From contig LQMQ01000039.1 in NCBI GenBank assembly GCA_001515205.2, forward strand, positions 1-51,958: a DNA stretch of 51,958 nt, given 5' to 3'. The stretch is from Candidatus Hadarchaeum yellowstonense (GTDB lineage Archaea > Hadarchaeota > Hadarchaeia > Hadarchaeales > Hadarchaeaceae). Under the pieces are notes generated by a model. That model ran no database searches. It had not been told where the DNA came from and saw nothing but the letters and a program-made list of their open reading frames with translations. Position 1 is the first letter of the stretch. Each line of letters opens with the position of its first letter. Shown piece after piece: positions 1 through 34,234 of the stretch. The translations under genes were made by a program, and so were the position numbers.

Positions 1-402
1 CCATTTTAGGTATATCCGCTCTTCGCAGCTCTCTTTGAACGGCCTTATCCAGCCATAGTTTCTTTCAAAGGCCAGTTTCGGGTTCATCTTCCTCAACACG
101 TATTTGCACACGGGTTCTGAAACTTTTCTGCAGGCTTCCTTCGTGTCGACTTTTAGGAGGACGGAGAGCCGAAGTACTGGACATGGGTTTTTGCATCGTG
201 TAATGAGTTCGTTATCAGTAAGCCGCACAACTTCAATATCCTTTCTGTTCACTCTAAGAAAGTCCAGATAAAAGAGCTTGAGCACATCCGACATCGAATT
301 TGCAATTTTAGGCTTGATCATCCATAAAAAAGCGTAAAGATAAAAGACGCTCTCTGCCATGGCTAGAACAATCTCCTTTATGAAGGCCAGGTTGCCGCGC
401 AT
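1..402 (-). CDS. Partial hypothetical protein, possibly L-2-amino-thiazoline-4-carboxylic acid hydrolase-like
   Basis: Reading leftward from an ATG at 402 the frame stays open for 134 codons to the window edge, so the C-terminus is missing. An in-frame TAA about 16 codons upstream bounds it. The protein begins MRGNLAFIKEIVLAMAES and later has a Cys-rich stretch (CKNPCP, then TKEACRKVSEPVCKY), a NPKLAFERNYGWIRP segment and CEERI. From memory this pattern (NPCP, a Cys-containing EACRKV helix, then NPKL-x-RNY-xx-IRP) recurs in small archaeal proteins of the ATC-hydrolase-like fold; I could not confirm it by search. A second ATG at 360 is a possible start. It is divergent from the arsR-AOR operon and shares that operon's low GC. 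Being a real CDS is fairly sure; the family is a guess. Confidence 0.6.
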   Translation of the reverse strand, partial: MRGNLAFIKEIVLAMAESVFYLYAFLWMIKPKIANSMSDVLKLFYLDFLRVNRKDIEVVRLTDNELITRCKNPCPVLRLSVLLKVDTKEACRKVSEPVCKYVLRKMNPKLAFERNYGWIRPFKESCEERIYLKW

Positions 403-725
403 TCCTCGGCCCCGACAAACTTTTGCACTATATCTTGCCTCCCGCCTTTATATGCTCTCAGGCTTATCATAGTTCTGCGGAACTAAAAAGCCGATTGAAA
501 TCAAAAACCTTGAGCCTAGCGACCACGACCTGATCAAAAAATCACGAATACGAAACGCGGCATTTATGGTTTCTGCTGCAAAGGTTGCTTTTTTGTAATA
601 TATTGTTGAATATTGGAGTATCTTGTCCTTAGGAACTCCCGCACATATGTGATCTTAGACTTTGTGGAGACCTTGTTGAGTAATTAATAACAATATTTAA
701 ATATTATTATAAACTCACGTTTATC
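403..725. other. AT-rich intergenic region upstream of arsR
   Basis: This 323-base stretch between the left-edge gene and arsR holds no convincing ORF on either strand. It is rich in A/T runs near its right end, where the arsR promoter and a palindrome lie (692-705). I see no tRNA-like or other structured RNA in the remainder. Confidence 0.5.
692..705. promoter_or_regulatory. TATA region and 14-bp palindrome before arsR
   Basis: AATATTTAAATATT is a perfect 14-bp palindrome centred about 27 bases upstream of the arsR ATG at 726. It has the composition and spacing of an archaeal TATA box, which would leave an almost leaderless mRNA. Because the gene encodes a metalloregulator, the palindrome is also a candidate autoregulatory operator; that second role is inference. 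Confidence 0.5.
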
Positions 726-1046
726 ATGCGCTCGGCAATAAAAAATTTGATGCTTAAGGCTAAAGTGTTCAAGGCCCTCTCCGACCCGGTAAGGCTTAAA
801 ATTCTAACACACCTACGCAATGGTGAAAAATGCGTCTGCGAGATCGTTCCCTATATTGGGATACCACAACCACTGGTTTCTAGACACCTGGCAATACTAA
901 AAAGATGTGGACTTGTGAAGAATAGAAAAATGGGGAATAGAAGACTCTATTTTGTAACAGATCCCGCAATATTCAAAATAATCGACGCTGTAAATGATGA
1001 TCTGTTGAGTGCGCTGTTAAAACATGCTGTTGAACAAATAGTTTAG
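726..1046 (+). CDS. ArsR/SmtB-family metalloregulator with CVC motif
   Basis: A 106-residue winged-helix repressor. KALSDPVRLKILTHLR begins the HTH domain, followed by GEKCVCEIV, the ArsR alpha-3 metal-site signature (Cys-Val-Cys), and the recognition helix PQPLVSRHLAILKRCGLV. In the family, As(III), Sb(III) or soft-metal binding to this Cys pair releases the operator. It is the first gene of an apparent operon with the polyferredoxin (35-base gap), tungsten AOR and FAD oxidoreductase. A metal, metalloid or thiol-redox signal may therefore control aldehyde oxidation here. The inducer cannot be read from sequence. The start is supported by the TATA region about 27 bases upstream. Confidence 0.85.
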   Translation: MRSAIKNLMLKAKVFKALSDPVRLKILTHLRNGEKCVCEIVPYIGIPQPLVSRHLAILKRCGLVKNRKMGNRRLYFVTDPAIFKIIDAVNDDLLSALLKHAVEQIV

Positions 1047-1081
1047 GAAATTTAGCATCATAACTGGAAAGGAGGGAAAAA

Positions 1082-1561
1082 ATGGATAAAATAGTAGTGG
1101 TGAACTACGACAAATGTATTGGATGCAGAACTTGTGAAACTGTTTGTTCCCTTGTTCACGAGAAGAGGATTAATCCCTCTGAATCGCGAATAAACGTGGT
1201 AAAATACGAAGAAATTGGGGCAAACATACCTGTACTTTGTCAAAAATGCGAGGATCCTGCGTGCGCTGCTGTCTGTCCTATGGACGCGATAAAAGTTGAC
1301 GAATCTCTTGGAACTTACATTGACTATACTAGATGTGTGGGTTGTAAAATGTGTATTTTGGTTTGTCCCATTGGAGGAATCGGCCTTAATCCAGCGAATA
1401 AGAAGGTTATAATTTGCGATTTGTGCAAGGGCGACCCACAATGTGTCAAGTCATGCCCTGAACAAGCGTTGGAATACGTTGACGTGAGCAAATTGTCCAT
1501 TAAAAAGAGGAGGGAAGGCTTAGAAAAACTTGCAAAGTTTTTGGAGGTGGCAAAGATATGA
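1082..1561 (+). CDS. aorA: Four-cluster polyferredoxin, AorA-like electron-transfer subunit
   Basis: A 159-residue cytoplasmic iron-sulfur protein with 16 Cys in four groups: CIGCRTCETVC, CQKCEDPACAAVC, CVGCKMCILVC and CDLCKGDPQCVKSC. This is enough for four [4Fe-4S] clusters. The layout is that of the small subunit encoded next to tungsten aldehyde oxidoreductases, like AorA of the AorABC enzyme of Aromatoleum aromaticum. It should carry electrons away from the tungsten subunit encoded just downstream, whose ATG overlaps this stop codon (ATGA at 1558-1561). The start has a strong AAGGAGGG ribosome-binding site 5 bases upstream. The gene symbol rests on context and architecture. Confidence 0.85.
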   Translation: MDKIVVVNYDKCIGCRTCETVCSLVHEKRINPSESRINVVKYEEIGANIPVLCQKCEDPACAAVCPMDAIKVDESLGTYIDYTRCVGCKMCILVCPIGGIGLNPANKKVIICDLCKGDPQCVKSCPEQALEYVDVSKLSIKKRREGLEKLAKFLEVAKI

Positions 1562-3426
1562 ACGGCTACACGAATAAAATTTTATTTGTAAACCTAAGCG
1601 ATAACAGTGCTGGGATCATTCCCACCGAAAAATACATTGAACAATTTGTCGGCGGCAGAGGAATAGCGGTTAAACTTCTCTACGAGCTAACACCAAAAAA
1701 CGTTGATCCACTCGGTCCTAAAAATGCGCTCATCATTATGACTGGACCGTTGACTGGAACAATTGTGCCTTCTTCAGGCAGAGTTGACGTTATTTCAAAA
1801 TCACCACAGACAAATTTGCTTGGAGGATCGAATGCTGGCGGATTCTTTGGACCTGAACTGAAATATGCAGGATATGACGGAATCGTCATTACTGGCAGAG
1901 CTTCGTCGAAAGTTTACATTGACATATATAATGATGATGTTGAAGTTAAAAGCGCTGAAAATTTGTCTGGAAAAGGGGTTTTCGACACAGTTAAAGCATT
2001 AAGAAAAAACGACGAAGATACACAGGTCGCTTGTATTGGGCCGGCTGGCGAGAAACTTGTTAACCTTTCAGGCATAGCCTTCAGCATGCGTAACTACGCT
2101 GCTCGCTGTGGACTTGGCGCGGTCATGGGCTCGAAAAACTTGAAAGCGATTGCTGTCAGAGGTACTAAAGGATTAGACGTAGCCGTGCCGGATCAGCTCA
2201 AGCAGATAGCGGATGAAATGAGAGAGCGCATAAAGGATACGCCTAGTTATAAGGAGTTCCCCGAATGGCATCACAAACTCTTTAGAGTTCTCGAAGCAGA
2301 CGCTAAAACATTCTTCGGCAATTATGATAATGTCTTATGGGATGGTCGGTTTGAAGCCTATGAAAATGCTGAAAAATTTGTGAAAGGCGCCGAGTTAAAA
2401 CTTCAATCATGTTTCGGCTGCCCATTACGGTGCTGGGCTTACATTAACATGAAAAATGTTGGAAAAGCAAGCGCTGTAGCATGCCAAGGAACCCTAACAT
2501 CCATAGTCAACTTCGCCAAAATTAAAGATTTCAACAAAGTGTGGGAAGCCTACCTATTGTGTCAAGACATGGGGTTAGACACAGGCGGAACAAGCGCCAC
2601 CATCGCCTATGCTATGGACTTGTATTCAAAGGGAATACTAAGCAAAACTCAAGTAAATGCCATAAACTTAACTTTCGGCGATGGAAACGCCTTTGTCAGT
2701 CTCGTCAAAAAGATTGCTGGGAAAGAAGGCATTGGAGAACTTTTAGCGGATGGTGTTAAAAAGGCGTCAGAGAAGCTAGGCGAAGCCGCCAAAAAACTTG
2801 CCGTGTACGCCAAGGGAGGCCAGGAGCTTTGGCTCATGGAGATAAGGCCGTTTAAGGGTGTCGCTCTCTCATGCGCCGTGACGGATTCAGGAAGCCACAA
2901 CAGAGCAGCATATGGTCTATGCGAGTTTTACTACAGATCAATGAAGACGCAAGCAGAAACTGTAGCAAAAAACATTGTAGGAACTGAGGAAGCGGCACAA
3001 CCCACAAGGTACGAGTATAAGCCAAAGCTGGTCGCAATATACGAGGACATGCACACTCTTGCCGACTCTTTAGGTGTGTGTTCCATACCCTTTATGCCAG
3101 TTGGGCTTGACTTGTGGACAAAAGCTTATACCGCGTCTACTGGGCGCGAAACTTCGCCTAAAGACCTTATGTACGTGGCTGAACGCATAAGAACTCTTGA
3201 GAGGCTCTTCAACATAAGAGAGGGACTCACCAGACAAGACGACACTATAGCTGAAAGAATGTTTAGCGAGCCATTGAAAGAAGGCCCATGGAAGGGCGAA
3301 GCACTTGATAAAGTTATGTTTGAGAAAATGATCGACGAATACTACGCTCTTAGAGGATGGGACCTCACTGGAAAACCAAAGCCTGAAACTTTGAAACGTT
3401 TAGGATTGGAAGATACATGCGCATAG
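1558..3426 (+). CDS. aorB: Tungsten-containing aldehyde:ferredoxin oxidoreductase (AorB-like)
   Basis: A 622-residue AOR-family protein, the usual length. Such enzymes oxidise aldehydes to carboxylic acids with a tungstopterin and one [4Fe-4S] cluster. Visible family marks are VGGRGIAVKLLYEL near the N-terminus, GPLTGTIVPSSGR, the GLGAVMGSKNLKAIAVRG pterin-binding segment (about residues 186-203) and cluster ligands Cys285, Cys288, Cys292 (CFGCPLRC) with the distal Cys508 (LGVCSIP). No frameshift is seen. It overlaps the polyferredoxin stop and its own end overlaps the downstream oxidoreductase start by 10 bases, indicating tight coupling. The aldehyde substrate cannot be inferred. Its GC content is lower than that of the second AOR in this window. 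Confidence 0.9.
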   Translation: MNGYTNKILFVNLSDNSAGIIPTEKYIEQFVGGRGIAVKLLYELTPKNVDPLGPKNALIIMTGPLTGTIVPSSGRVDVISKSPQTNLLGGSNAGGFFGPELKYAGYDGIVITGRASSKVYIDIYNDDVEVKSAENLSGKGVFDTVKALRKNDEDTQVACIGPAGEKLVNLSGIAFSMRNYAARCGLGAVMGSKNLKAIAVRGTKGLDVAVPDQLKQIADEMRERIKDTPSYKEFPEWHHKLFRVLEADAKTFFGNYDNVLWDGRFEAYENAEKFVKGAELKLQSCFGCPLRCWAYINMKNVGKASAVACQGTLTSIVNFAKIKDFNKVWEAYLLCQDMGLDTGGTSATIAYAMDLYSKGILSKTQVNAINLTFGDGNAFVSLVKKIAGKEGIGELLADGVKKASEKLGEAAKKLAVYAKGGQELWLMEIRPFKGVALSCAVTDSGSHNRAAYGLCEFYYRSMKTQAETVAKNIVGTEEAAQPTRYEYKPKLVAIYEDMHTLADSLGVCSIPFMPVGLDLWTKAYTASTGRETSPKDLMYVAERIRTLERLFNIREGLTRQDDTIAERMFSEPLKEGPWKGEALDKVMFEKMIDEYYALRGWDLTGKPKPETLKRLGLEDTCA

Positions 3427-4622
3427 TTATAATTGGTGCTGGTGCTGCAGGAGTAAGCGCTGCTGAAACAATTCGAAAGCTAAACGCAGATGTAGAAATA
3501 ACTATCATAAATGAAGAAGATAGTTTGCCCTACTCACCTGTCGCTCTTCCTGAATATATCGAGGGAAGAATATCAAGGGAGCAGCTCTACTTATGGAACG
3601 ATGACCGCATAAGAAAAATGAAAGTTTTTTACGTTCGTGGAAAAACTGCTGTAAACGTTGATGTAAACGCCAAAAAAGTGATAACTGAAGATGGATCCAT
3701 TTTTTCTTACGACAAGCTGCTAATAGCGACGGGGGGCAGACCAGTAATTCCCGATGAATTAAAAAATAAAAGGGGGATTCTTACGCTTAGAACTTACTCA
3801 GACGCAGAGGCAATTCGCAATAAAATTAAAGAAAGAGTGGTCATTTATGGTGCAGGAGCAGTTGCCGTAAAAACAGCTGTTGCACTACGCAGAAAGGGCA
3901 TTGACGTTATAATTCTCTGCAGATCAAGGGTTTTGAGAAGACTTTTTGACGAAGACATATGCCGGTTAATACACGATCTTTTAATCACAAACGGAGTGAA
4001 AATAGTCGGGATTCATGAACAAATGCGCCTATTAGGAGACCCCGTAGAAAAACTGAGAGTGGGAACACAGGAATTGAAATGTGACGGAGTCATCGCCGCG
4101 TTGGGGGTAACTCCAAACTTACCCTTTTTAGATCCGCGTCAAATCAAATTGGGCAGATCGGGGGGAGTAATCGTAAATGAAAAAATGCAAACCACGGCAC
4201 CAGGTGTTTACGCAGCTGGCGACTGCTGCGAAACTATAGAGATAACATCTGGAATCCAGAACGTAATCGCGCTATGGCCTCCAGCTGTAGATCAGGGAAA
4301 AATCGCAGCCTTAAACATGCTTGGCATAAACGCAATTTATGACGGAACACTCCCACAGAATATAGTCGACGTGTTTGACACAACATTCGCATCAATCGGG
4401 TCGCTGGATGGAGAAAAAATAACCGTCAGAAACCATACCACGATCAAACGCTTCACCATAAAAAATGGAGAAATCGTGGGGGCTCAACTTGTCGGCGACG
4501 TAAATGACGCCGGTATTATATCAAACGTATTGAAAAGAAAACTTCAGAAAACAACGTTAAAAGAAGTGCTTGCAAGAAAAAGCGTACTTGCAATGTACGC
4601 AAGCTCTAACAGCATCATATGA
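3417..4622 (+). CDS. aorC: FAD-dependent NAD(P)H oxidoreductase, AorC-like subunit
   Basis: A 401-residue two-dinucleotide-domain flavoprotein. The N-terminal FAD motif is IIGAGAAGVSAAETI; a second Rossmann motif VVIYGAGAVAVKTAVAL near residue 140 fits NAD(P)H, and TTAPGVYAAGDCCE near residue 260 is the conserved FAD-binding ATG/GD motif. At the place where NADH oxidases and CoA-disulfide reductases carry their redox Cys, this protein reads YSPVALPEYI, so that Cys is absent and a disulfide reductase role is unlikely. It starts inside the AOR gene (10-base overlap). By position it matches the FAD subunit AorC of Aromatoleum AorABC, which would couple aldehyde oxidation to NAD. That role is inferred from context. 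Confidence 0.8.
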   Translation: MRIVIIGAGAAGVSAAETIRKLNADVEITIINEEDSLPYSPVALPEYIEGRISREQLYLWNDDRIRKMKVFYVRGKTAVNVDVNAKKVITEDGSIFSYDKLLIATGGRPVIPDELKNKRGILTLRTYSDAEAIRNKIKERVVIYGAGAVAVKTAVALRRKGIDVIILCRSRVLRRLFDEDICRLIHDLLITNGVKIVGIHEQMRLLGDPVEKLRVGTQELKCDGVIAALGVTPNLPFLDPRQIKLGRSGGVIVNEKMQTTAPGVYAAGDCCETIEITSGIQNVIALWPPAVDQGKIAALNMLGINAIYDGTLPQNIVDVFDTTFASIGSLDGEKITVRNHTTIKRFTIKNGEIVGAQLVGDVNDAGIISNVLKRKLQKTTLKEVLARKSVLAMYASSNSII

Positions 4623-4653
4623 AATTTTGAATTTAAAAATTCCGACAAGAGTT

Positions 4654-5238
4654 TTAGGCTTCCATTTTTCTCCTGAGCCGCTTCATCGTCGAGAAAAGCG
4701 CCTCAGGATTTTGCCCGGGACTTGCCTCTGATTTCCAACGCAACTTTAACGAAAGAACGGAGGATCTCTGCGAAAACGCGCTTGCACAGCACGTCTAGCG
4801 GCTCCAGACGGATCGTGGATTTTCCAGTGGGACGGTCCACGGGATCAAATGATGGGAAAACACGCGCAATCAGAATCGCCTGAACGTGTGTTTTATGCTA
4901 ACTATCTTCCGAAGCACGCGCTCCTCCATCCCTAGGTTCTGTTCTGCATCCTTGCAAAAACATCCAACTCGTGCACATGTCGTGGCTTTGGCCTTTTATC
5001 TCCACTATCTGCTGCTTTGGCACACTATCAGCCATGCTGTGTAATCATCGGGTCGCCTTAGCTGAGGTCTCAAAAACACAGCTTCAAAAATCGACATGCC
5101 CAAAACTTACCATGCGTATGTGGCCGACTGCGGCAACACTCCACGTCTCATTTTGTGATTGCCCAACTCGCCATCTCGGCCAAAAACAACACCGATATTT
5201 TTCAATTTGGCGCTAAACTTAATTTGGTAAACGTTCAT
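4654..5238 (-). pseudogene. Decayed protein-coding gene, family not recognised
   Basis: Reading leftward from an ATG at 5238, preceded by AAAGGAG, codons give a good 43-residue N-terminus (MNVYQIKFSAKLKNIGVVFG...) that ends at a stop near 5107. Coding-like sequence resumes in other frames. One 66-codon stretch contains FPSFDPVDRPTGKST and IRLEPLDVLCKRVFAEIL and ends in a stop. After a one-base shift the frame continues to NPEALFSTMKRLRRKMEA and a TAA at 4654-4656. At least two frameshifts and internal stops are needed to join these pieces, so I read it as a pseudogene of about 195 codons. Sequence or assembly error is the alternative. It lies in the AT-rich segment, convergent with the AOR operon. 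Confidence 0.5.
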
Positions 5239-5441
5239 CAACTAACTCGCTCCTTTGTGATTTAAGAAGCTATCGTTAACAAAAACGAGCAATGTTGGTC
5301 TACGTTGAAAGCTAAGCAATTTAGCATCAAATCAAGGCTTTTTCAAGGTCGACGAAACTTATGCGGATAGAGTTAAAACTGGAGGAACAAGAACTAAAAG
5401 ATCATAAAATATCGCGAATATCAAAAAAGTACTAACTATTT

Positions 5442-5461
5442 TTACATCCAAGTAAATGTAA
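5442..5461. promoter_or_regulatory. Inverted repeat upstream of arsR (likely ArsR operator)
   Basis: TTACAT-N8-ATGTAA ends 13 bases before the arsR ATG at 5475. An A/T-rich CTAACTATTTTTAC stretch runs into it and may be the TATA element. A dyad overlapping the start of transcription is where ArsR repressors usually bind. Confidence 0.45.
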
Positions 5462-5474
5462 CTCCGCTGGAACC

Positions 5475-5852
5475 ATGGTGAAAAAATTCCAACGGTTAGA
5501 TCTCAGAATACCTCCAGATTACAGCCTCTCCGTTGAAGTTTTAAAAAAAATGGAAAAGGAGATACAATGCGACACCAAAGAGACGATCAAATTTTTACAG
5601 GCAATTTCCCATCCAACCAGGTTGCGCGTGCTCAGAGCACTGCGGATTAAGGAATTATGCGTGTGCGTGTTGGTCGCCCTGATGAAAATCAAATATTCCA
5701 AACTGTCCTACCACCTAAAGATCCTGAAAAAAGCCGGCCTTGTCGAATCGGAAAAACGTAAAAATTTCCTGATCTACCGGCTTACCGGCCTCGGCAGAAA
5801 AGTCTTAGCTGATCTGGAGAGACCATCGGAGGATCAGGGGCGACAACTTTAA
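5475..5852 (+). CDS. arsR: ArsR-family arsenic-type repressor
   Basis: A 125-residue winged-helix protein. TKETIKFLQAISHPTRLRVLRALR opens the HTH, IKELCVCVLV is the Cys-Val-Cys metalloid site, and YSKLSYHLKILKKAGLVESEK is the recognition helix and wing. It lies 74 bases upstream of the ACR3 arsenite exporter, and both genes have dyads in their promoters, so an As(III)-responsive repressor of the exporter is the simplest reading. The N-terminal 35 residues are an extension of unknown role. It sits about where base composition changes from the AT-rich left segment to the GC-richer rest. Confidence 0.85.
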   Translation: MVKKFQRLDLRIPPDYSLSVEVLKKMEKEIQCDTKETIKFLQAISHPTRLRVLRALRIKELCVCVLVALMKIKYSKLSYHLKILKKAGLVESEKRKNFLIYRLTGLGRKVLADLERPSEDQGRQL

Positions 5853-5875
5853 TGAAAAATAGCCAGCCATCACCT

Positions 5876-5914
5876 TTTTATAGGGTTTGAGATAATATGA
5901 ATAGAAATTCATAT
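5876..5914 (+). promoter_or_regulatory. ACR3 promoter with perfect 8-4-8 inverted repeat
   Basis: A TATA-like CTTTTTATAGG lies at 5875-5885. ATATGAAT-AGAA-ATTCATAT at 5895-5914 is a perfect dyad placed across the expected transcription start, ahead of a GAGGTAAGG ribosome-binding site (5915-5923) and the ATG at 5927. This is a good candidate operator for one of the flanking ArsR proteins. It also argues against the upstream in-frame ATG at 5897, which lies within the dyad. Confidence 0.6.
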
Positions 5915-5926
5915 GAGGTAAGGACC

Positions 5927-6970
5927 ATGACCGAGGAGAGAAAGCTTGGCCTGTGGGAGAAATACCTCACCCTCTGGGTGGCGCTGTGCATCATCTGCGG
6001 CATCTTGCTGGGAAGAGTTTTTCCCCAGATCTCGCAAATCCTCGCCGAATTTGAGATCGCCCAGGTTTCCCTACCGATAGCGATCTGTTTGTTCTTCATG
6101 ATTTACCCCATCATGGTTCAGATCGACTTCCAAGAGGTCAAGAAGGCCGCCCGATCCCCCAAGCCCGTAGCCCTCACGCTCTTCATGAACTGGGCGGTGA
6201 AACCCTTCACAATGGCCTTCTTCGCCTGGTTCTTCCTCAGCGTTGTCTTCGGCCAGTTCTTAACCCCAGACCAGATCCAGCAGTACCGGGCCGGGATGAT
6301 CCTGCTGGGGGTGGCCCCCTGCACGGCGATGGTGCTGATGTGGAGCTATCTGGCTCGGGGAAACGTCGCCCACACTTTGGTGATGACGGCGATCAACTCC
6401 CTGTCCATGGTCGTCCTTTACGCACCGCTGGCGACTTTCCTGCTCGGGATCTCCGGGATAGTGGTTCCCTGGGCCACCATCGCCCTGACGGTCACCATCT
6501 ACATCGTCACCCCCCTGATAGCCGGCTATTACACCAGAAAACTGGCCATTGAAAGAAAGGGACTGGAGTGGTTCCAGAGAAGGCTCGTCCCGCCGCTGGG
6601 TAAAGTTGCCATAGCGGCCCTCTTGATAACGCTCGTCGTGCTTTTCTCCTACCAAGGCCATCTCCTCCTAGCGATTCCGGCAATCATCGGCATGATCACC
6701 CTCGGCATCTTCACCAACATCCTCATCATCTTTGCCATTCCCTACGTCATCGCCAAAAAGATTCATCTGGGCTATGAAGACGCTGCGCCTGTGGCCATCA
6801 TCGCGGGGAGCAACCATTTTGAGGTCGCGGTTGCCGTTGCCATCACCCTGTTTGGAGTGAAGTCGGGAGCCGCGCTGGCCACCGTGGTCGGGGTTCTAAC
6901 CGAAGTGCCGCTGATGCTCTTTCTGGTTTGGCTCTGCAAAAGAACCAAGGGATATTTTGATCAACCTTAG
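5927..6970 (+). CDS. acr3: ACR3-family arsenite efflux transporter
   Basis: A 347-residue integral membrane protein with about ten hydrophobic segments. The diagnostic segment GVAPCTAMVLMWSYL carries the conserved Cys132 that ACR3 transporters need for As(III) transport, and AIIAGSNHFEVAVAVAI near residue 290 is the second conserved region. It exports arsenite driven by the membrane potential. The start at 5927 is chosen for the GAGGTAAGG ribosome-binding site; an in-frame ATG 10 codons upstream lies inside the operator dyad. It is flanked by ArsR genes on both sides. Its GC is like the main part of the window. Confidence 0.92.
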   Translation: MTEERKLGLWEKYLTLWVALCIICGILLGRVFPQISQILAEFEIAQVSLPIAICLFFMIYPIMVQIDFQEVKKAARSPKPVALTLFMNWAVKPFTMAFFAWFFLSVVFGQFLTPDQIQQYRAGMILLGVAPCTAMVLMWSYLARGNVAHTLVMTAINSLSMVVLYAPLATFLLGISGIVVPWATIALTVTIYIVTPLIAGYYTRKLAIERKGLEWFQRRLVPPLGKVAIAALLITLVVLFSYQGHLLLAIPAIIGMITLGIFTNILIIFAIPYVIAKKIHLGYEDAAPVAIIAGSNHFEVAVAVAITLFGVKSGAALATVVGVLTEVPLMLFLVWLCKRTKGYFDQP

Positions 6971-7015
6971 CCCTATTTTTAAAGCGGAAAGAGTTAATGC
7001 TAAAAGGTGCTCGGG

Positions 7016-7297
7016 ATGGGGGCAGAGGATCAGCTCAGGGTGCTGAAATGCGTGAGCGATAAAACGCGTCTTGAAATCCTGCAGCTGCTGAGGGAAGGGG
7101 AAAAATGCGTGCGTGACATGCTGGAGAGAATCAACCAAGAACAATCACTGGTCTCGCACCATCTGCAGGAAATGAGAAAGTGCGGGCTGGTGAAGACGCG
7201 GCGCGAGGGAAAAAAGGTGATCTATAGCCTCGCCGATGACTCCATCGTCAAGCTTCTGGATGACGTGGAACTGATTTCCAAGAAGTTCTGTAAATAA
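7016..7297 (+). CDS. ArsR-family HTH regulator lacking the CVC pair
   Basis: A winged-helix protein of 93 residues from the ATG at 7016, which has AGGTG 6 bases upstream; a GTG at 7007 would add three residues. LKCVSDKTRLEILQLLREG opens the HTH and SLVSHHLQEMRKCGLVKTRR is the recognition region. The metal-site position reads GEKCVRDML, with Arg where the second Cys of CVC would be. It may therefore sense a different ligand or bind As(III) through other Cys (there are four in all). It directly follows the ACR3 gene and is probably co-transcribed. Confidence 0.8.
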   Translation: MGAEDQLRVLKCVSDKTRLEILQLLREGEKCVRDMLERINQEQSLVSHHLQEMRKCGLVKTRREGKKVIYSLADDSIVKLLDDVELISKKFCK

Positions 7298-7321
7298 TTC
7301 TGAATGATCTCCGGCTCCCAA

Positions 7322-8311
7322 TTAACCGCTTAGATCAGGGGCCCTCTTCGCCACCAGCTTCAGCGATTGCAGCGGCTCCGGCCCGATGGGGGAGCCGATC
7401 ACAACGGTGGTTACCCCGATCTTCTTCAATTCCTCCACCCGGTTGACCAAGATATCGACGCCACCGCAGACCGAAAACTCTTCCAGCATCTCATCGGTGA
7501 CTGCCTCCCTCGCCTTGGCCAGATCCCCCCGGCGCAGATATCTCCTCACCACCTCCACATCCTCAGCCGAAATTGACCGATGGGCCAAAGACTCCTCCGG
7601 AGCCGACGACGCAACGAAGGCGACTACCCCCCGCGCGGCATCCCGGGCCTTTTTTTCATCGCTGTCTATGGAAACGGCCAGATAGGCCACATAGTCAAAA
7701 TCCGTTTGGGTGCGTCCGCCTCGCCTCAGGCCCTCCTTGATGCTCTTGACCGCATCCTCAATGTCCACTGGATGGGAGGCGTTGATGAGGGCGCCGTCGG
7801 CCACCTCGCCCGCCAGCCTGAGCATCCTCTCCCTCCGGCCCCCGACGTAGATCGGGATGTGGTTTCCCGGCCTGAACCTGAGCCGGGCCCCCCGACAGGT
7901 GAAACACTCCCCCTCGAACTCCACTTTTTCCCCGGCGAGCAGCCCCCTGATGATGTGGATGGCCTCCCGAACGCTGGTGACCGGCTTGGTCTGTTTCACC
8001 CCCACCGTCTCCAAAAAAAAGGGATCACCGGACGACATCCCGAGCAGCGCCCGCCCGTGGGAAAGTTCATTCAAGGTGGCCACCGCGGCCGCCGTCACCG
8101 CTGGATGGGTGAGGTAGGGATTGGTCACCCCGGGCCCCAGCTGCACCCGGCGAGTATTCAGGGCAAGCTGGGCCAGCACCGAATGAACGTAACGGTTGTG
8201 ATAGTGATCGCAGACCCAGATCTGCTGAAACCCCAGCTGCTCAACCTCCTTCGCCAGAGCAACCATTGTGTCCAGCCGCAGGTAGGGGACAAATTCCACG
8301 CCAAACTTCAA
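7322..8311 (-). CDS. mer: 5,10-methylenetetrahydromethanopterin reductase (F420-dependent)
   Basis: A 329-residue luciferase-like TIM-barrel protein. It reduces methylene-tetrahydromethanopterin to methyl-H4MPT with F420H2, in the methyl branch of the archaeal Wood-Ljungdahl pathway. Mer features: MKFGVEFVPY start, VCDHYHNR, LGPGVTNPYLTHPAVTA, ATLNELSHGRALLGMSSGD, DGALINASHP, and the C-terminal VVIGSPIGPEPLQSLKL. Length matches known Mer proteins. Translation should start at a TTG at 8311 preceded by GGTGGTC. It is divergent from cofE and cofD, which make its cofactor, with a shared promoter between. A general F420-dependent oxidoreductase is the alternative, but the motif match favours Mer. 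Confidence 0.87.
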   Translation of the reverse strand: MKFGVEFVPYLRLDTMVALAKEVEQLGFQQIWVCDHYHNRYVHSVLAQLALNTRRVQLGPGVTNPYLTHPAVTAAAVATLNELSHGRALLGMSSGDPFFLETVGVKQTKPVTSVREAIHIIRGLLAGEKVEFEGECFTCRGARLRFRPGNHIPIYVGGRRERMLRLAGEVADGALINASHPVDIEDAVKSIKEGLRRGGRTQTDFDYVAYLAVSIDSDEKKARDAARGVVAFVASSAPEESLAHRSISAEDVEVVRRYLRRGDLAKAREAVTDEMLEEFSVCGGVDILVNRVEELKKIGVTTVVIGSPIGPEPLQSLKLVAKRAPDLSG

Positions 8312-8321
8312 GGGACCACCA

Positions 8322-8331
8322 TCTGATTTAA
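8322..8331. promoter_or_regulatory. Shared divergent TATA element between mer and cofE
   Basis: The short gap between the two starts has one A/T-rich core, GATTTAAGCC. It reads ATTTAAG toward cofE and CTTAAAT toward mer. Its distance to the cofE start (about 37 bases) suits an archaeal TATA box; the distance to the mer start (about 15) is short, so the mer promoter assignment is weak. Confidence 0.35.
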
Positions 8332-8363
8332 GCCGTCTGGACTAATAATCCCCTTCGGTGCTT

Positions 8364-9104
8364 ATGCAGCTCATCCCGATAAAGGGCATCCCGATGGTCA
8401 GACGCGGCGACGACGTTGGTGAACTAATCCTAGAAGCAGCAGAGAAACAACACCTGAAGATAGAAGACGGCGACGTCCTGGCGGTGGCCCAGACGGTGAT
8501 CTCCAAAGCGGAGGGGGAAGTTGTCGACCTCCGCACCATCAGGCCCAGCCAGCGCGCCATCGAGATCGGTAGAAGGATCGACAAGGACCCCCGCGTGGTT
8601 GAGGTTATCCTTCAGCAATCTGCCGAGATTGTCAGACTGGCCCACGTGATCATCTCAAGGACCAGACATGGCTTCGTCTGCGCCAACGCCGGCGTGGACC
8701 GCTCCAACGTTGACGAAGAGCACGTGACGCTCCTTCCCCGCGACCCCGACGCAAGCGCCGCCAGGATTCGGGAGAGGATCAGGAAAAAACTGGGGGTGGA
8801 CATCGCGGTGATCGTGACCGACACGCAGGGTCGGCCCTTCCGCTGCGGTTGCACCGGGCTGGCCATCGGTGTCTCGGGGATGAAACCACTGCTGGACATG
8901 AGGGGGAGGCGGGACCTCTACGGGAAGGAGCTGAAGGTGACCGTGACCTGCCCCGCCGACTCACTGGCCGCCGCAGCGGTGATGCTAATGGGTGAGTCGA
9001 ACGAAGGCATCCCGGCCGTGTTGATCAAAGGAGCCGGTTACGAGCGGGGAAATGGCTCAATCCGGGAACTCATCAGGGCTCCGGAGCTGGACCTCTTCAG
9101 GTGA
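8364..9104 (+). CDS. cofE: Coenzyme F420-0:L-glutamate ligase
   Basis: A 246-residue CofE-family enzyme. It adds glutamate residues to F420-0 with GTP, the last step of F420 synthesis. Recognisable parts: MQLIPIKGIPMVRRGDDVGELI, DGDVLAVAQTVISKAEG, RTRHGFVCANAGVDRSNV and VIVTDTQGRPFRCGCTGLAIG. ATG 8364 is preferred because it aligns with the usual CofE N-terminus; GTG at 8358 would add two residues. The stop lies four bases before the probable cofD start. Confidence 0.92.
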   Translation: MQLIPIKGIPMVRRGDDVGELILEAAEKQHLKIEDGDVLAVAQTVISKAEGEVVDLRTIRPSQRAIEIGRRIDKDPRVVEVILQQSAEIVRLAHVIISRTRHGFVCANAGVDRSNVDEEHVTLLPRDPDASAARIRERIRKKLGVDIAVIVTDTQGRPFRCGCTGLAIGVSGMKPLLDMRGRRDLYGKELKVTVTCPADSLAAAAVMLMGESNEGIPAVLIKGAGYERGNGSIRELIRAPELDLFR

Positions 9105-9108
9105 TGGC

Positions 9109-10044
9109 TTGCTGGCAGTTCTCTCCGGGGGCACCGGGACACCCAAGTTGCTTCAAGGGCTCGTCCGCCTGGTGAAGCAGGAGGAGCTGTCCATCATCGT
9201 CAACACGGGGGAGGATGTGGAGATCTCTGGCCTGTTTGTTTCCCCCGACATTGACACCGTCATGTACACGCTGGCAGGTATCGTCAACGAAGAAACGTGG
9301 TATGGCGTCAGGGGGGACACCTTTGAAGAACACGAGCGGCTCAGGAGGGAAGGCAAACCTGAGCTGCTCCGCATCGGTGACCGCGATCGCGAGGTCAAAA
9401 GACGACGCACCGAGCTCCTGAAAGAGGGCAGGACACTGTCAGAGGTCACCAGGATTCTCTGCCGCGATTTCCATGTTCTCGCCAACGTCATGCCGATGTC
9501 AGACGATCGGGTCAGAACGCTGATTTACACCGAAGCCGGCCCGATGGGCTTCCACGAATTCTGGGTCGCCAGGAGGGCCAAGGACCGAGTGACCTCCGTG
9601 GCCTTCGAGGGCGCAGCATCCGCGAGGCCTGCTCCCGGAGTTCTAGAAACCATCGAAAAAAGTGATGCCATCATCATCGGGCCCAGCAATCCGGTGACCA
9701 GCATTGGGCCAATCGTGGCGATCAAGGAGATAAGGCTGGCATTGCAAAGGGCCAGGGAAAAGGTCATTGCCGTCTCCCCGGTAGTCGGCGGCTCCCCGGT
9801 GAGTGGCCCGGCGGGGATTCTGATGAAGGGACTGGGCTATGAGGCCAGTCCGCTGGGGGTGGCAAAAATTTACCATGACTTCATCGGGGGGCTGGTGATT
9901 GACGACCGCGATAGGTCAATTGCACCCGAAATTGAAAAGTTGAACATAAGGGCCTTCACCACTAACCTGATGATGCCAGACCTGCCCTCAAGGGTCAACC
10001 TAGCGCGGACGGTCTTAACCCTGGCCGGGATAAGGCCAACCTAG
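9109..10044 (+). CDS. cofD: 2-phospho-L-lactate transferase (LPPG:FO transferase)
   Basis: A 311-residue CofD. It transfers the phospholactyl group from LPPG to FO to give F420-0. The N-terminus MLAVLSGGTGTPKLLQGL is the conserved GGTG-TPKLL nucleotide-loop start. IIVNTGEDVEISGLFVSPD and IIGPSNPVTSIGPI are also typical. The frame is open further left to an ATG at 9052, but that would overlap cofE by 50 bases and add a non-homologous leader. A TTG at 9109, just after an AGGTGAT ribosome-binding site, gives the expected N-terminus. Its last four bases overlap the end of cofH, which is convergent. Confidence 0.92.
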   Translation: MLAVLSGGTGTPKLLQGLVRLVKQEELSIIVNTGEDVEISGLFVSPDIDTVMYTLAGIVNEETWYGVRGDTFEEHERLRREGKPELLRIGDRDREVKRRRTELLKEGRTLSEVTRILCRDFHVLANVMPMSDDRVRTLIYTEAGPMGFHEFWVARRAKDRVTSVAFEGAASARPAPGVLETIEKSDAIIIGPSNPVTSIGPIVAIKEIRLALQRAREKVIAVSPVVGGSPVSGPAGILMKGLGYEASPLGVAKIYHDFIGGLVIDDRDRSIAPEIEKLNIRAFTTNLMMPDLPSRVNLARTVLTLAGIRPT

Positions 10045-11168
10045 ATCAGTTCATAAGTCGTGGTCCGCTGCCGCGGGATCCTCCCCATCTCGAGAATAAG
10101 CCGCTCCAGCTGCTCCGCGCTCATGCTGTCCAGGCTCCCCCCGGCGGCTCTGGTGATGTGCTCCTCCATCAGCGTCCCGCCCAGATCATTTGCGCCCGCC
10201 CTGAGCATGAGCTGGGCGCCCCGGGGACCAAGCTTCACCCAAGAGGCCTGGATATTGTCCACGTAACCGGCGAGCATCAGCCGGGCCACCGCGTGCAGGC
10301 GCAGGCTCTGCACCAGGTTCGGCGCTGGCTCCAGCTTGAATTCCCTGCCCAAAGGGGTGTTCCGGGACATGAAGCCCAGCAGGACGAACTCCGTGAATCC
10401 CCAGGTCTCCTTCTGAATCTCGCGGATGATCGAGATGTGCTGGGCCAGCTCCAGCGGGGTCTCCACGTGGCCGTACATCACCGTGGCAGTCGTGGGCAAG
10501 CCGAGGCGGTGGCAGGTCTTTATCGTCCTGATCCACTGCTCGGTGGAGATCTTCTCCGGGCAGATTATCGACCTGACCCTGTCGACCAGTATTTCCGCCG
10601 CCGTCCCCGGAACTGAATTCAACCCCTCGCGCTTAAGGGCCTGGATCACCTCCTCAAGGCCCATGTTCTCCCTTTCCGCGATGTGGTTGATCTCGGAGGG
10701 AGAAAAGGCGTGAATGTGAATTTCCGGGGCCGCTCTCCTGATCGCGCGGAGTATCTGGAGGTAGTCCTCCAGCCTGAAATCAGGATGCAGACCTCCCTGC
10801 ACGCAGACCTCAGTAGCCCCGATTTCCAGCGCCTCGGCGACCTTGGCCTCTATCTGCTCCGGGGACAACACATAGGCTTCGGGGTCTCCGGGTGAACGGC
10901 GGAAGGCGCAGAACCTGCAACTGCCCCGGCAGATGTTGGTGAAGTTTATGTTTCTATTTTTAACATAAGTGACGATATCCCCGACCCTGCGCCTCCTCAC
11001 CTCATCAGCCACCTGGAGCAGCGCCTGCAACTTTTTACCTTCGGCCTGGAGAAGCAGCGCCCCCTCCTCCACCGTGAGCTCCTCGCCGGCAAGCGCGCGC
11101 TGCAGGATTTCACCGAACTTAGAGCGCCGCGGCACGGTAACCTTCTTCATCAGCAAGGTCGCGGACAA
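10041..11168 (-). CDS. cofH: FO synthase subunit 2 (5-amino-6-ribitylaminouracil-tyrosine 4-hydroxyphenyl transferase)
   Basis: A 375-residue radical SAM enzyme. CRGSCRFCAF holds the three [4Fe-4S] ligands (CxxxCxxC), preceded by NRNINFTNI. VCVQGGLHPDFRLEDY and HIHAFSPSEI are CofH hallmarks. It condenses tyrosine with the ribityluracil so that CofG can close the deazaflavin ring to FO. The start is a TTG at 11168 with GAGGTGA 6 bases upstream; an ATG at 11150 is an alternative. It begins inside the 3' end of cofG (50-base overlap), so the pair is translated together. Confidence 0.93.
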   Translation of the reverse strand: MSATLLMKKVTVPRRSKFGEILQRALAGEELTVEEGALLLQAEGKKLQALLQVADEVRRRRVGDIVTYVKNRNINFTNICRGSCRFCAFRRSPGDPEAYVLSPEQIEAKVAEALEIGATEVCVQGGLHPDFRLEDYLQILRAIRRAAPEIHIHAFSPSEINHIAERENMGLEEVIQALKREGLNSVPGTAAEILVDRVRSIICPEKISTEQWIRTIKTCHRLGLPTTATVMYGHVETPLELAQHISIIREIQKETWGFTEFVLLGFMSRNTPLGREFKLEPAPNLVQSLRLHAVARLMLAGYVDNIQASWVKLGPRGAQLMLRAGANDLGGTLMEEHITRAAGGSLDSMSAEQLERLILEMGRIPRQRTTTYELI

Positions 11169-12207
11169 GCTCTCTCACCTCTTTTGACATGAACTTCTCC
11201 TCCCTCACGAAGCGGGGATATATGGGCAGCCTCTCCCTGGGTTTGCCTCCGGCCTGCTCTATGGCCGCCCGAAGCTGGGAGGCGCTGGGCCAGGGGCGAT
11301 CGGCATTGATGAAGTCAGGTGTGACTGGGGAAATGCCGCCAAAATCAGAGGCGCCCGCTGAGATCACCTCCGAAACAGCAACCACAAAGTCGGGGCTGCC
11401 CGGGGGAGTGATCTTGCCGTTGCGGCTCAGCAAGTTGGGCGGCACCTGAATGCTGGTGTCGGGCAGGATCGAGCGAGCGAGGGCCACCGTGCTCAACAGG
11501 GTGCCTTCGTCCGGCCTGCGCCACGAAGCCATCGGGGTGCCGGGTTTGGGGTCAAAGGGCTGAATGATTACCTCCTGGATGTGGCCGTAGCGCTCCTGCA
11601 GCTCCTTGATCTTCACCAGCGAACGAACGCGATCTTCCATGCTTTCGCCGATCCCAATCAGAATACCTGTGGTGAAGGGGATGTTAAGTCTACCGGCTGC
11701 CTCGATGGTTGCCAGCCGCAGCCTGGGGGCCTTCCCCGGGCTCCTCGAATGGGCTTGGAGTTCCGCGATGCTCTCGAGCATCAGCCCCATGCTGGCGTTG
11801 TAGCGACGCAGGCGACGCAGCTCCGACTCCTGGAGGACCCCGGCGTTCGTGTGCGGTAACAACCCGATCTCGAGCACCTGCCGGCAGAGGTCCACCAGGT
11901 AATCCACGGTGCTCCGATAACCGAACTCCTCAAGCTTTTCTCTGGCCTGCGGATGAACCTCAGGAAGCTCGCCGAGGGTGAACAGCGCCTCAGAGCATCC
12001 GGCCTCCTTTCCCCGTTGGGCCAGCGCCAGCACCTGCTGAGGCGACATGAACCAGGCGCCGTCACCGGGATCCCTCCTGAAGCCACAGTAAGCGCAGCGA
12101 TTGCGGCACATGTTGGTTAACGGTAGAAAGACATTGCGGGAGTAGCTGATCTCCCTCTGAAGCCGCACCCCACCCACCTCGACACAACCATAAAACAGGG
12201 ATAACAT
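11119..12207 (-). CDS. cofG: FO synthase subunit 1 (7,8-didemethyl-8-hydroxy-5-deazariboflavin synthase)
   Basis: A radical SAM protein of about 362 residues. SRNVFLPLTNMCRNRCAYCGF carries the CxxxCxxC cluster motif. Downstream ALFTLGELPEVHPQAR, LGLLPHTNAGVL-like and QEVIIQPFDPKPGTPM segments are CofG marks. The frame is open leftward to 12741, but that extension lies over cofC on the other strand and is not homologous. I start it at ATG 12207 (MLSLFYGC); ATG 12225 is the alternative. Neither has a ribosome-binding site, so the mRNA may be leaderless. It is divergent from cofC and precedes cofH in an overlapping pair. Confidence 0.92.
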   Translation of the reverse strand: MLSLFYGCVEVGGVRLQREISYSRNVFLPLTNMCRNRCAYCGFRRDPGDGAWFMSPQQVLALAQRGKEAGCSEALFTLGELPEVHPQAREKLEEFGYRSTVDYLVDLCRQVLEIGLLPHTNAGVLQESELRRLRRYNASMGLMLESIAELQAHSRSPGKAPRLRLATIEAAGRLNIPFTTGILIGIGESMEDRVRSLVKIKELQERYGHIQEVIIQPFDPKPGTPMASWRRPDEGTLLSTVALARSILPDTSIQVPPNLLSRNGKITPPGSPDFVVAVSEVISAGASDFGGISPVTPDFINADRPWPSASQLRAAIEQAGGKPRERLPIYPRFVREEKFMSKEVRELVRDLADEEGYRAAAL

Positions 12208-12223
12208 AAAGGTGATTGTTACC

Positions 12224-12865
12224 ATGACCGTTTGGGCCATCATCCCGGTGAAGCGCCTGGACGCGGCGAAATCCAGCCTCGCCAGGGTCTTGAATCCCGC
12301 ACAGCGGCGATGGCTGGTGCTGGCGATGCTCGCCGACATGCTCCATGCCCTCAGCCAGGCCCCCTCCATCTCCGGAACCGCTGTCGTCTCCCAGGACGAG
12401 GAAGTGCTCGACTTCGCCCGCAAAAATGGGGCCACCGCCATCAGGGAGCAGAACCTCGGACTTAACGGTGCCTTCAGGCTGGCAATCAACCGCGTGGTCG
12501 AGTGGGGGGCAACGGCGGTGCTGCTGCTCCCTGGGGATCTGCCGCTGCTGAGGGCGGCCGATGTCGAAAATATCATCGCCATGGCCAGCGCCGCGCGTGA
12601 AGTAATCATTTCTCCCTCCAAGGCCAATGGAACCAACGCCCTTTTTCTCAGGCCCCCGGACGTCATGGAGCTAAAGTTCGGCGGTGAAAGCTTCCCCCTG
12701 CATGTGGCCGAGGCAGTCCGGGTGGGGGTCAAGCCCCGCATCTACCGGTCAACGACGGTGGCCTTCGACGTTGATGAGCCCGAGGATCTAATCGCAATGG
12801 AAAGTCTAGAAACCAGAAGCCAAACCCGTGAGTTCCTTCTCAGAACAAAAGCTGGCCGTACTTGA
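12224..12865 (+). CDS. cofC: 2-phospho-L-lactate guanylyltransferase
   Basis: A 213-residue nucleotidyltransferase that activates phospholactate (or a related phospho-acid) with GTP for CofD. MTVWAIIPVKRLDAAKSSLA is the CofC N-terminus; LLLPGDLPLLRAADV is the metal/nucleotide region; SPSKANGTNALFLRPP and STTVAFDVDEPEDL are typical of the C-terminal half. ATG 12224 is chosen because GGTGAT lies 7 bases upstream; GTG 12212 overlaps that site. It completes cofC, D, E, G and H within 4.5 kb. Its 3' end overlaps the convergent LysE-type gene by 26 bases. Confidence 0.9.
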   Translation: MTVWAIIPVKRLDAAKSSLARVLNPAQRRWLVLAMLADMLHALSQAPSISGTAVVSQDEEVLDFARKNGATAIREQNLGLNGAFRLAINRVVEWGATAVLLLPGDLPLLRAADVENIIAMASAAREVIISPSKANGTNALFLRPPDVMELKFGGESFPLHVAEAVRVGVKPRIYRSTTVAFDVDEPEDLIAMESLETRSQTREFLLRTKAGRT

Positions 12866-13475
12866 AAATGAAATATGTCCCCAGTATTATCAGCAGCAGC
12901 GTGCAAAGGAAAAGGATCACCCGATAACCCCTGACGCCGATCACCCTTTTGCCCCTCACCACCGAGAACGAGACCAGCGAGAACCAAGTCAAGTCGGAGA
13001 GAAAGTGGCCGACGAGCCAGAGGACAACTCCGGCCAAAGAGGCGACCAGATAGGCCTCCATGATCGTGGCCACCCCGATCGTGGCCCACCAGAAGATAAC
13101 CGTCGGGTTCAACAGGGTGCTGTAGAGCACCCCTCCCAAGATAGGGTGGTGTTTCGTCGCCACCATCTTTTTGGGGGCTGACCTGTTTCTCAGCTTTGAA
13201 AACCCATCCAAACCGAGAACGATCAACATCAACCCGCCAAAGAGCCCGAATCCTGACTGAAAGGACCTCGCCTGCAGGATCACGCCCAGCCCCAGCGCAA
13301 TCAACGAAAGGATGACCAGCTCGACGAGCACGTGCCCGACCACGGCCAGGGGCCCGGTGCGTGCGCCATAGCTCGGAGACTTCGCCATGGTGTAGGCCAG
13401 CAGAGGACCGGGGATGAGCGACCCCGAAAGCCCGATGATGAAGCCGATCGGCAGCTGAATCAATGTTTGTATCAT
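12840..13475 (-). CDS. LysE/RhtB-family amino-acid exporter
   Basis: A 211-residue membrane protein with six hydrophobic segments. The N-terminal [20 protein letters not shown] matches the family pattern (G-x-SPGP-like, here SLIPGP), and [14 protein letters not shown] is the conserved middle segment. Family members export amino acids or similar metabolites across the cytoplasmic membrane. The start is ATG 13475; the open frame to 13742 lies over trpB2 and is a shadow. It is divergent from trpB2, but no substrate can be assigned. Confidence 0.82.
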
Positions 13476-13507
13476 TTTGTACCTTGATGAACTTAATAGC
13501 ACAAAGC

Positions 13508-13516
13508 TTATAAATA
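13508..13516 (+). promoter_or_regulatory. TATA box of trpB2
   Basis: TTATAAATA lies 30-38 bases upstream of the ATG at 13546, with GAGGTGGTC at 13531 as ribosome-binding site. This placement supports the 13546 start over the longer open frame from 13477, which begins upstream of the box. Confidence 0.6.
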
Positions 13517-13545
13517 GCACGGTGCAATTAGAGGTGGTCGAAAAA

Positions 13546-14904
13546 ATGAAGCAGATGAAGTACCTTCTCGACGAGGAGGAAATTCCCAAGGCCTGGTACA
13601 ACATCCAGGCGGATCTGCCAACTCCGCTGGATCCGCCGCTTAACCCGGCGACCAAGGAGCCCATCCGGCCGGAGGATCTGGCCCGGATCTTTCCCATGGA
13701 ACTGATAAAGCAGGAGGTCAGCCAGGAGCGCTGGATTCCCATCCCTGAAGAGGTCCGGGATGTCTACAGGATCTGGCGCCCGACGCCACTCTACCGGGCG
13801 CTCAGGCTGGAGAAGGCGCTGAAGACTCCGGCGAGGATTTACTACAAGTGGGAGGGGGTCAGCCCGCCGGGAAGTCACAAGCCCAACACCGCCGTGGCCC
13901 AGGCCTACTACAACATGAAGGAAGGGGTGCAGAGGCTGGCCACTGAAACCGGTGCCGGACAATGGGGCAGCGCGCTAGCCTTTGGCACGATGCTTTTCGG
14001 CCTCAAGTGCACCGTCTACATGGTCAGGGTCAGCTACGATCAGAAACCCTATCGCCGTATCATGATGGAAACCTGGGGAGCCGAGTGCGTTCCCAGCCCG
14101 AGCAACAGAACCGAGTACGGCCGGAGGATCCTGAAGGAGGACCCGAACAACCCGGGAAGCCTAGGCATCGCGATTTCCGAGGCCATCGAGGATGCCGCCA
14201 CTCACGACGACACCAAATATGCCCTGGGCAGTGTCCTCAACCACGTGATGCTCCACCAGACGGTGATCGGCCTGGAGGCAAAGCGGCAGCTTGAAATTGC
14301 CGGTGATTACCCCGACGTGATCTTCGGCTGCGTTGGTGGCGGAAGCAACTTCTCCGGGCTGGTCTTTCCATTTCTCGCGGACAAGCTCTCAGGAAGGAAA
14401 CCCGAGCTTAGGGCCGTTTCCTGCGAGCCCAAAGCCTGCCCGACCCTGACCAAGGGGCCATACATGTATGACTTCGGCGACTCGGCGGCGATGACTCCGC
14501 TGCTGAAGATGTACACGCTGGGGCATTGCTTTGTGCCACCGCCGATCCACGCCGGGGGTCTGAGGTATCACGGGGATGCCCCGCTCCTCTGCAAACTCAC
14601 CCATGAAGGATACATGGAGGCCGTGGCCTATCACCAGACTGAAGTCTTTCAGGCAGCAAAACTCTTCGCGGAAACTGAGGGCTTTGTGGTCGCGCCGGAG
14701 ACCTCGCATGCTATAAAGGCGGTGATCGATGAAGCATTGAGGTGCAGGGAAACGGGGGAGGAAAAGGTGATCCTGTTCAACAACAGCGGGCACGGGCACT
14801 TTGACCTAGCGGCTTACGACGCCTTCCTGCGCGGCAAGCTCATCGACTACGAGTACCCGGAAAAACTGGTCCAAGAAGCGATAGCCAAGGTGCCGAAGGT
14901 CTGA
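13546..14904 (+). CDS. trpB2: Tryptophan synthase beta-like protein TrpB2
   Basis: A 452-residue PLP enzyme of the TrpB2 subgroup, longer than TrpB1. The PLP lysine is Lys112 in [31 protein letters not shown] follows, and [17 protein letters not shown] is the phosphate-binding glycine loop. The C-terminal [14 protein letters not shown] is also typical. It makes tryptophan from indole and serine, or uses phosphoserine in some archaea. No trpA or other trp gene is in the window. ATG 13546 is chosen from the GAGGTGGTC ribosome-binding site. Two small RAM-domain genes follow directly and are probably co-transcribed. Confidence 0.92.
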
Positions 14905-30687: not shown

Positions 30688-30706
30688 CCGCGTGGGACTT
30701 TCACCC

Positions 30707-32372: not shown

Positions 32373-32381
32373 AAGCTCACC

Positions 32382-34232: not shown

Positions 34233-34234
34233 TT

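Follow-up and report, generated by a model that had tools for sequence, protein, structure and literature searches.

The left end of contig LQMQ01000039.1 of Candidatus Hadarchaeum yellowstonense (51,958 nucleotides in full, hereafter the window) carries a gene for an ArsR-type regulator followed by three overlapping genes for a polyferredoxin (WorS), a catalytic subunit of the aldehyde oxidoreductase (AOR)/WOR family (WorL), and a flavoprotein (WorN), which together probably constitute an NAD-linked WOR, wired through the polyferredoxin, whose active site is not of the aldehyde type. The operon comprises the following features.

726 to 1046, plus strand: ArsR1, ArsR/SmtB-type regulator (HTH_5, 64.9 bits; HTH_metalloreg, 93.2 bits, cut-off 55)
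1082 to 1561, plus strand: WorS (AorA-like), polyferredoxin of 159 residues with 4Fe-4S domains (Pfam); 16 Cys, matching four [4Fe-4S] sites
1484 to 1549, plus strand: WorS residues 135–156, predicted C-terminal helix and candidate filament contact (AlphaFold2 model)
1558 to 3426, plus strand: WorL, tungsten/molybdenum bis-pterin subunit of 622 residues (AFOR_N, 248 bits; AFOR_C, 300 bits)
2410 to 2433, plus strand: WorL [4Fe–4S] motif Cys285-x2-Cys288-x3-Cys292; the fourth cluster cysteine, Cys508, lies at 3079–3081, and the cluster cysteines of PfAOR are conserved
2482 to 2484, plus strand: WorL Cys309 codon (Cys309-Gln310-Gly311-Thr312), candidate metal ligand by alignment with YdhV Cys336 and PfAOR Glu311
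3417 to 4622, plus strand: WorN (AorC-like), FAD/NAD(P)H ferredoxin-reductase-type flavoprotein of 401 residues (Pyr_redox_2, PF07992, 190 bits)

Composition and classification of the operon

The WorS and WorL open reading frames (ORFs) overlap by 4 bp, and those of WorL and WorN by 10 bp; the ArsR1 gene, which ends 35 bp before the start of WorS, is very probably the first gene of the operon. An earlier sequence-only reading had described three overlapping genes in the order polyferredoxin, AOR-family subunit and FAD/NAD flavoprotein, and the ORFs, Pfam domains and Protein Data Bank (PDB) matches all agree with that description. Its count of 16 cysteines in the polyferredoxin was likewise borne out, as WorS, which begins directly at MDKIVVVNYDKC, contains 16 cysteines that are invariant in an alignment of 15 relatives. 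ArsR1 contains a Cys-Val-Cys motif (Cys36 and Cys38), and a Cys-x-Cys motif in that helix is presumably an As(III)-type site.

PDB sequence searches matched WorS to 9mqx_E (E 4.4e-38) and then to 8c0z_C (E 6.7e-35), WorL to 9mqx_D (E 4.5e-95) and also to 9g7j, 1aor and 8c0z_A, and WorN to 8c0z_E (E 3.3e-44), which is AorC of the Aromatoleum aromaticum enzyme AaAOR, followed by CoA-disulfide reductases. Matches of 1e-38, 1e-95 and 1e-44 in three neighbouring frames exclude chance. The 9mqx entry is titled an electron-bifurcating tungstopyranopterin aldehyde oxidoreductase. The WorN model adopts an NADH:ferredoxin-reductase fold (Z about 35), with residues 362–401 below 50 in predicted local distance difference test (pLDDT) score, and 8c0z_E is absent among the 50 matches listed in this fold comparison. 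A CoA-disulfide reductase identity for WorN was considered and rejected, as the cysteine of the 3kd9 motif is substituted in the aligned WorN sequence.

WorL carries both AFOR domains, WorS the four-cluster cysteine set, and WorN a FAD-binding NAD(P) domain (PF07992, which we take to be IPR023753). By this gene content, the operon is classed under the published rules as a Class III WOR (WorLSN), a class to which the available text of PMC13328260 assigns 179 members and one characterised enzyme, AaAOR of clade 87. The whole genome contains seven AFOR_N matches. Pfam and NCBIfam scans of window positions 1–9104 revealed no twin-arginine translocation (Tat)/membrane or Bam partner subunits, and the tungstate-binding protein WtpA had no match at 1e-10 in the genome, a search that covered WtpA only among tungstate transporters.

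The WorL active site and its place in the family

In PfAOR, the metal is surrounded by Thr243, Glu311, Tyr312, Glu313, Tyr427 and His448, whereas in YdhV and BamB a Cys serves as an additional ligand and second-shell residues are missing, and the BamB reaction differs (PMC12096430, as far as its text was available). In a 120-row alignment, the WorL subfamily retains all four PfAOR cluster cysteines throughout, which rules out a loss of the type reported for WOR4 (one cluster Cys to Gly, with Tyr to Trp). The subfamily has A/V/H/R, a gap, S/M and S/N at the positions of Thr243, Glu313, Tyr427 and His448, respectively, while the Thr, Glu and His residues are retained by most other rows; non-canonical rows outside the subfamily include L053, L090, L093, L109–L111, L115, L116, L123–L136 and L138.

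Profile alignment with hhalign to nine AOR-type WORs places, without gaps, Cys309 of the window protein on Glu311 of PfAOR, Gln310 on Tyr312, and Gly311 on Glu313. When the comparison is made with ten WORs of the YdhV kind, among them YdhV of E. coli K-12 (Cys336), Cys309 falls on an invariant cysteine, and it also meets an invariant cysteine in four Chloroflexi and Thermodesulfobacteriota WORs. The CQGT motif is invariant in the aligned subfamily members (14/14) and occurs in 27 of 30 ORF pieces, from 22 genes; the remaining three are the non-members L117 and L121, and L149, an N-terminal fragment that stops before this region.

Two WorL trees, a quick one of 85 rows and a careful one of 36 rows, are concordant, and both recover the subfamily with 100% support. 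In the careful tree, 15 Cys-bearing rows lie on one side of a branch supported at 100/98, with AaAOR, AmWOR1 and the other AORs opposite; the quick tree supports the Cys side at 98 and also places there two rows outside any group, L115 and the Glu-bearing L108. Constraining the subfamily with five AORs was rejected by the approximately unbiased (AU) test (p 0.00107), as was constraining it with AaAOR, AmWOR1 and L070 (p 7.8e-5). On these trees, WorL is placed with the YdhV/BamB-type WORs and not as an orthologue of AorB. From the alignments we infer that Cys309 would serve as a ligand of W (or Mo), and three independent comparisons (profile alignment, tree and second-shell loss) support this.

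Several observations weigh against this assignment and against the reading of the operon built on it. The loop from cluster cysteine to Cys309 differs in length among the proteins compared (17 residues here, 14 in the L127-type, 22 in YdhV), the window WorL has His447 beside the lost His448 position, where its relatives have Val or Ile, and YdhV is a long branch in the WorL trees. The equivalence with BamB Cys322 was taken from the available text of a review (PMC12096430), the BamB sequence itself lying outside the alignment, and the ligand role of Cys309 is read from alignment as its sole basis. The link to ArsR is seen in the window alone.

Other WORs with unusual active sites were also encountered. 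L053, on contig C57 of the same genome (G000; 2814–4715), adjoins a WorS gene and has a non-canonical Lys, Asn, gap and His at the four positions. In the Chloroflexi and Thermodesulfobacteriota WORs L109, L110, L111 and L138, the invariant cysteine at the equivalent place is mostly followed by Gln, and for three of the four no WorS was found beside WorL. The window itself contains a second WOR (32382–34232, minus strand) within 31962–35764, along with a WorS-like gene (31962–32372) and an SSF symporter. In this WOR, Trp takes the place of the second-shell Tyr, as reported for WOR4, and an iron-containing alcohol dehydrogenase (Fe-ADH) gene lies nearby at 30692–31921.

Genomic setting and distribution of relatives

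Guanine-plus-cytosine (GC) content is 0.40–0.45 (about 0.42) over window positions 1–5474 and 0.50–0.63 beyond, and GC at third codon positions (GC3) is 0.38–0.43 in the four operon genes compared with 0.64–0.78 in seven measured genes that follow arsR2. A blastn comparison with a same-genus genome (G001, contig L173) produced a single match, from 5508 to 14000 (76% over 8.5 kb), and no match upstream of 5508; the upstream region in G001 holds other genes, three short ones of which appear thioredoxin/glutaredoxin-like by eye. The following features lie at and beyond this boundary.

4623 to 5507, no strand: right edge of the low-GC insert, set by synteny with the sister genome from 5508 and by the GC step
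5475 to 5852, plus strand: arsR2, native cluster
5897 to 6970, plus strand: acr3, arsenite exporter, native cluster (364 bits, cut-off 283)
7007 to 7297, plus strand: arsR3, native cluster

The arsR-acr3-arsR cluster is syntenic in G001, where ACR3 is 89% identical. Because of the GC and GC3 step and the synteny that starts only at 5508, ArsR1–WorSLN is assigned as foreign DNA next to a native arsenic cluster, placed there via insertion or assembly. Beside the arsenic cluster, positions 7322–10044 contain F420-type genes, namely an LLM-like oxidoreductase and a CofE-like frame (both by eye) and CofD.

A single-sequence search of 61 genomes yielded a best match of 38% outside the window, whereas a WorN search of 394 genomes turned up a relative at 49% in G387, where a single locus unites WorS, a tandem pair of WorL genes and WorN. 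GTDB contigs were then scanned with a three-WorL query and two peptide patterns, a non-exhaustive scan from which the best 80 of 85 relatives were taken; members at 43–48% came from Thermococcus sp. (L061–L064), Aciduliprofundum/DHVE2 (L065–L067) and Desulfurococcales (L068 and L140), below which identity drops to 36%. The subfamily thus spans three archaeal lineages at 45–51% identity with patchy occurrence: 9 of 94 Thermococcaceae genomes match at E <= 1e-130, three genomes match among the 394 relatives, and no subfamily WorL was found in the 27 other genomes of the phylum (28 in the collection). Three-subunit AORs are treated as bacterial in the available text of PMC6365974. No published description of the subfamily was found in the literature outside subscription papers and supplements, and it may sit among the numbered clades; in the available text of PMC13328260, ArsR goes unmentioned, and a Cys ligand is not discussed in its main text.

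The layout WorS–WorL1–WorL2–WorN is found in G387, G410, L061, L062, L063, L065 and L066, WorS–WorL–WorN in the window and G426, and WorS–WorL without WorN in G371 and L068, while the sequences of L064, L067 and L140 stop before any WorN position. The modules are exchangeable, as the two-L and N-less relatives show. Among the best 80 of 85 relatives, a WorN-like gene stands beside WorL only in the subfamily and in the Nitrospinota triad L070. The association of the flavoprotein with WOR genes, on which the earlier reading partly depended, holds inside the subfamily, where WorN adjoins WorL in 9/9 members, but mostly not for wider homologues: WorN matches at E <= 1e-50 occur in 13 genomes, and in 11 of these (all but the window's and G387) no WorL lies within the 3–4 kb examined.

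In the Thermococcus and DHVE2 operons, a major facilitator superfamily (MFS) transporter gene lies directly upstream, and DGC, OsmC, TauE, SLAC1, SBF and UspA-like genes neighbour various loci, which suggests a role in dealing with small reactive or toxic molecules. An arsenic/ArsR theme for the whole subfamily was considered and rejected, since the neighbouring SBF-family transporters reach just 76–114 bits where the ACR3 cut-off is 283 and a nearby helix-turn-helix (HTH) gene gives only a marginal HTH_5 match; no literature linking AOR with arsR in Thermococcus was found. In two Thermococcus loci (L063, 5938–6468; L064, 313–891), a diverged second WorS gene precedes the main one, and in three others (L160, 3142–4980; L161, 3326–5164; L159, 4158–6029) an old-yellow-enzyme/BaiCD-like flavoenzyme gene lies ahead of both the MFS gene and WorS.

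Comparison with known systems and proposed electron route

AaAOR (AorABC, 8c0z) resembles the window operon in gene order, in the four clusters of the small subunit, and in its NAD-type flavoprotein, and the operon fits the gene-content definition of Class III. The window WorL is, however, not AorB-orthologous, with CQGT replacing the second shell. WorN also seems to stand apart from AorC: in a tree of 27 rows, the nine subfamily WorN proteins group together (100), while AorC and L070 lie near glutamate-synthase-linked flavoproteins (87–93), although long branches weaken this tree. AmWOR1 of Acetomicrobium mobile (Class IV, 9mqx) supplies the best-scoring solved WorS and WorL, but consists of five subunits, with WorABC as a bifurcating plug, and has the canonical T/E/Y/H set and a WorL of another clade. 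The YdhV-type enzymes (Class V, clade 41) and BamB share with the window WorL an extra cysteine near the metal site (in the window by alignment), the second-shell loss and the side of the tree; unlike the soluble, three-gene, NAD-linked set of the window, they work with Tat/membrane subunits or BamDEFGHI.

The sequence-only reading had gone further and taken the operon for an AorABC of archaeal type, which would oxidise aldehydes with NAD, or reduce acids with NADH, and might assemble into conducting filaments. The equal set of three modules with overlapping genes, and the presence of AorC as top and AorA as second solved match of WorN and WorS, speak for this identity, and that part of the comparison stands; the position of WorL outside the AOR clade, the loss of all second-shell residues, and the apparent separation of WorN from AorC, in a tree with long branches, do not agree with it. 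As for stacking, the last 20 residues of AorA in AaAOR form a helix that is required for it (PMC10413684, available text), and WorSL of AmWOR1 is described as a nanowire in the available text of PMC13328260. The window WorS has a tail of 34 residues past the last cysteine, modelled as a helix at 135–156 with low confidence (pLDDT about 64–70; protein mean 69.3), and it aligns to the nanowire-type small subunit of AmWOR1 through residue 152, reaching that subunit's end. Against this, the tails vary inside the subfamily, being 27–29 residues long and of different sequence in Thermococcus and DHVE2. Alignment of the WorS model with VIA-align (8c0z_C, Z 6.0; 9mqx_G, Z 5.3) leaves model residues beyond 98 outside. 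These tail features point both ways on filament formation. The sequence-only reading as a whole, an archaeal AorABC, is improbable.

It is also conceivable, though unlikely, that the operon is real but foreign to this archaeon because the assembly joined sequence from a different organism, now the initial 5.5 kb, to the contig. The compositional step near 5.5 kb, the match to the same-genus genome only from 5508, and the absence of subfamily WorL from the 27 other genomes of the phylum would all fit a join, but horizontal transfer accounts for the identical facts; moreover, GC in the sister genome is also lower (0.40–0.46) just upstream of arsR2, so that the site looks variable, and GC is 0.49–0.55 on the other WOR contigs of this genome. 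It is similarly doubtful that WorSL mainly uses ferredoxin or another carrier, with WorN an accessory possibly acting elsewhere. L068 and L159 have WorS–WorL with no WorN behind, as this would predict, yet WorN directly follows complete WorL1 and WorL2, often overlapping, and within the subfamily WorN is always paired with WorL.

An NAD-linked WOR with a polyferredoxin as its wire and an active site not made for aldehydes is the probable identity of the operon product. Electrons would pass between the FAD of WorN, the WorS wire, the WorL cluster and the metal site, where Cys309 would act as a ligand of the metal, and NAD(P)H would reduce a substrate at this site, or the reaction would run in reverse. 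NADH (about -320 mV) alone is too weak for benzoyl-CoA-type reductions, and in the reductive direction an easier acceptor, such as an oxyanion, a metalloid or another stress-related compound, is for this reason more likely. Aldehyde:NAD oxidoreduction or NADH-driven acid reduction, the function given in the sequence-only reading, is unlikely because WorL lacks the residues for aldehyde and acid chemistry and falls on the Cys-bearing YdhV/BamB side. CsWOR41L, a clade-41 enzyme, oxidised 0 of 46 aldehydes according to the available text of PMC13328260. A bolder and rather unlikely extension would make the subfamily a third, archaeal branch of Cys-ligated W (or Mo) enzymes. Here one catalytic subunit, or two different ones, would be supplied by an NAD(P)H flavoprotein together with a polyferredoxin wire and would carry out redox chemistry on a metalloid or sulfur compound. 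An ArsR-type sensor would control the system, which might form a filament bearing two different active sites on a single wire.

The gene-content class WorLSN can contain unrelated catalytic subunits, and naming all three-subunit WORs aldehyde oxidoreductases is therefore unsafe. Complete Thermococcus genomes carry the gene set, so that genetic testing is possible in a tractable group. The subfamily would extend the Cys-bearing side of the family to NAD-linked, soluble WORs of thermophilic archaea.

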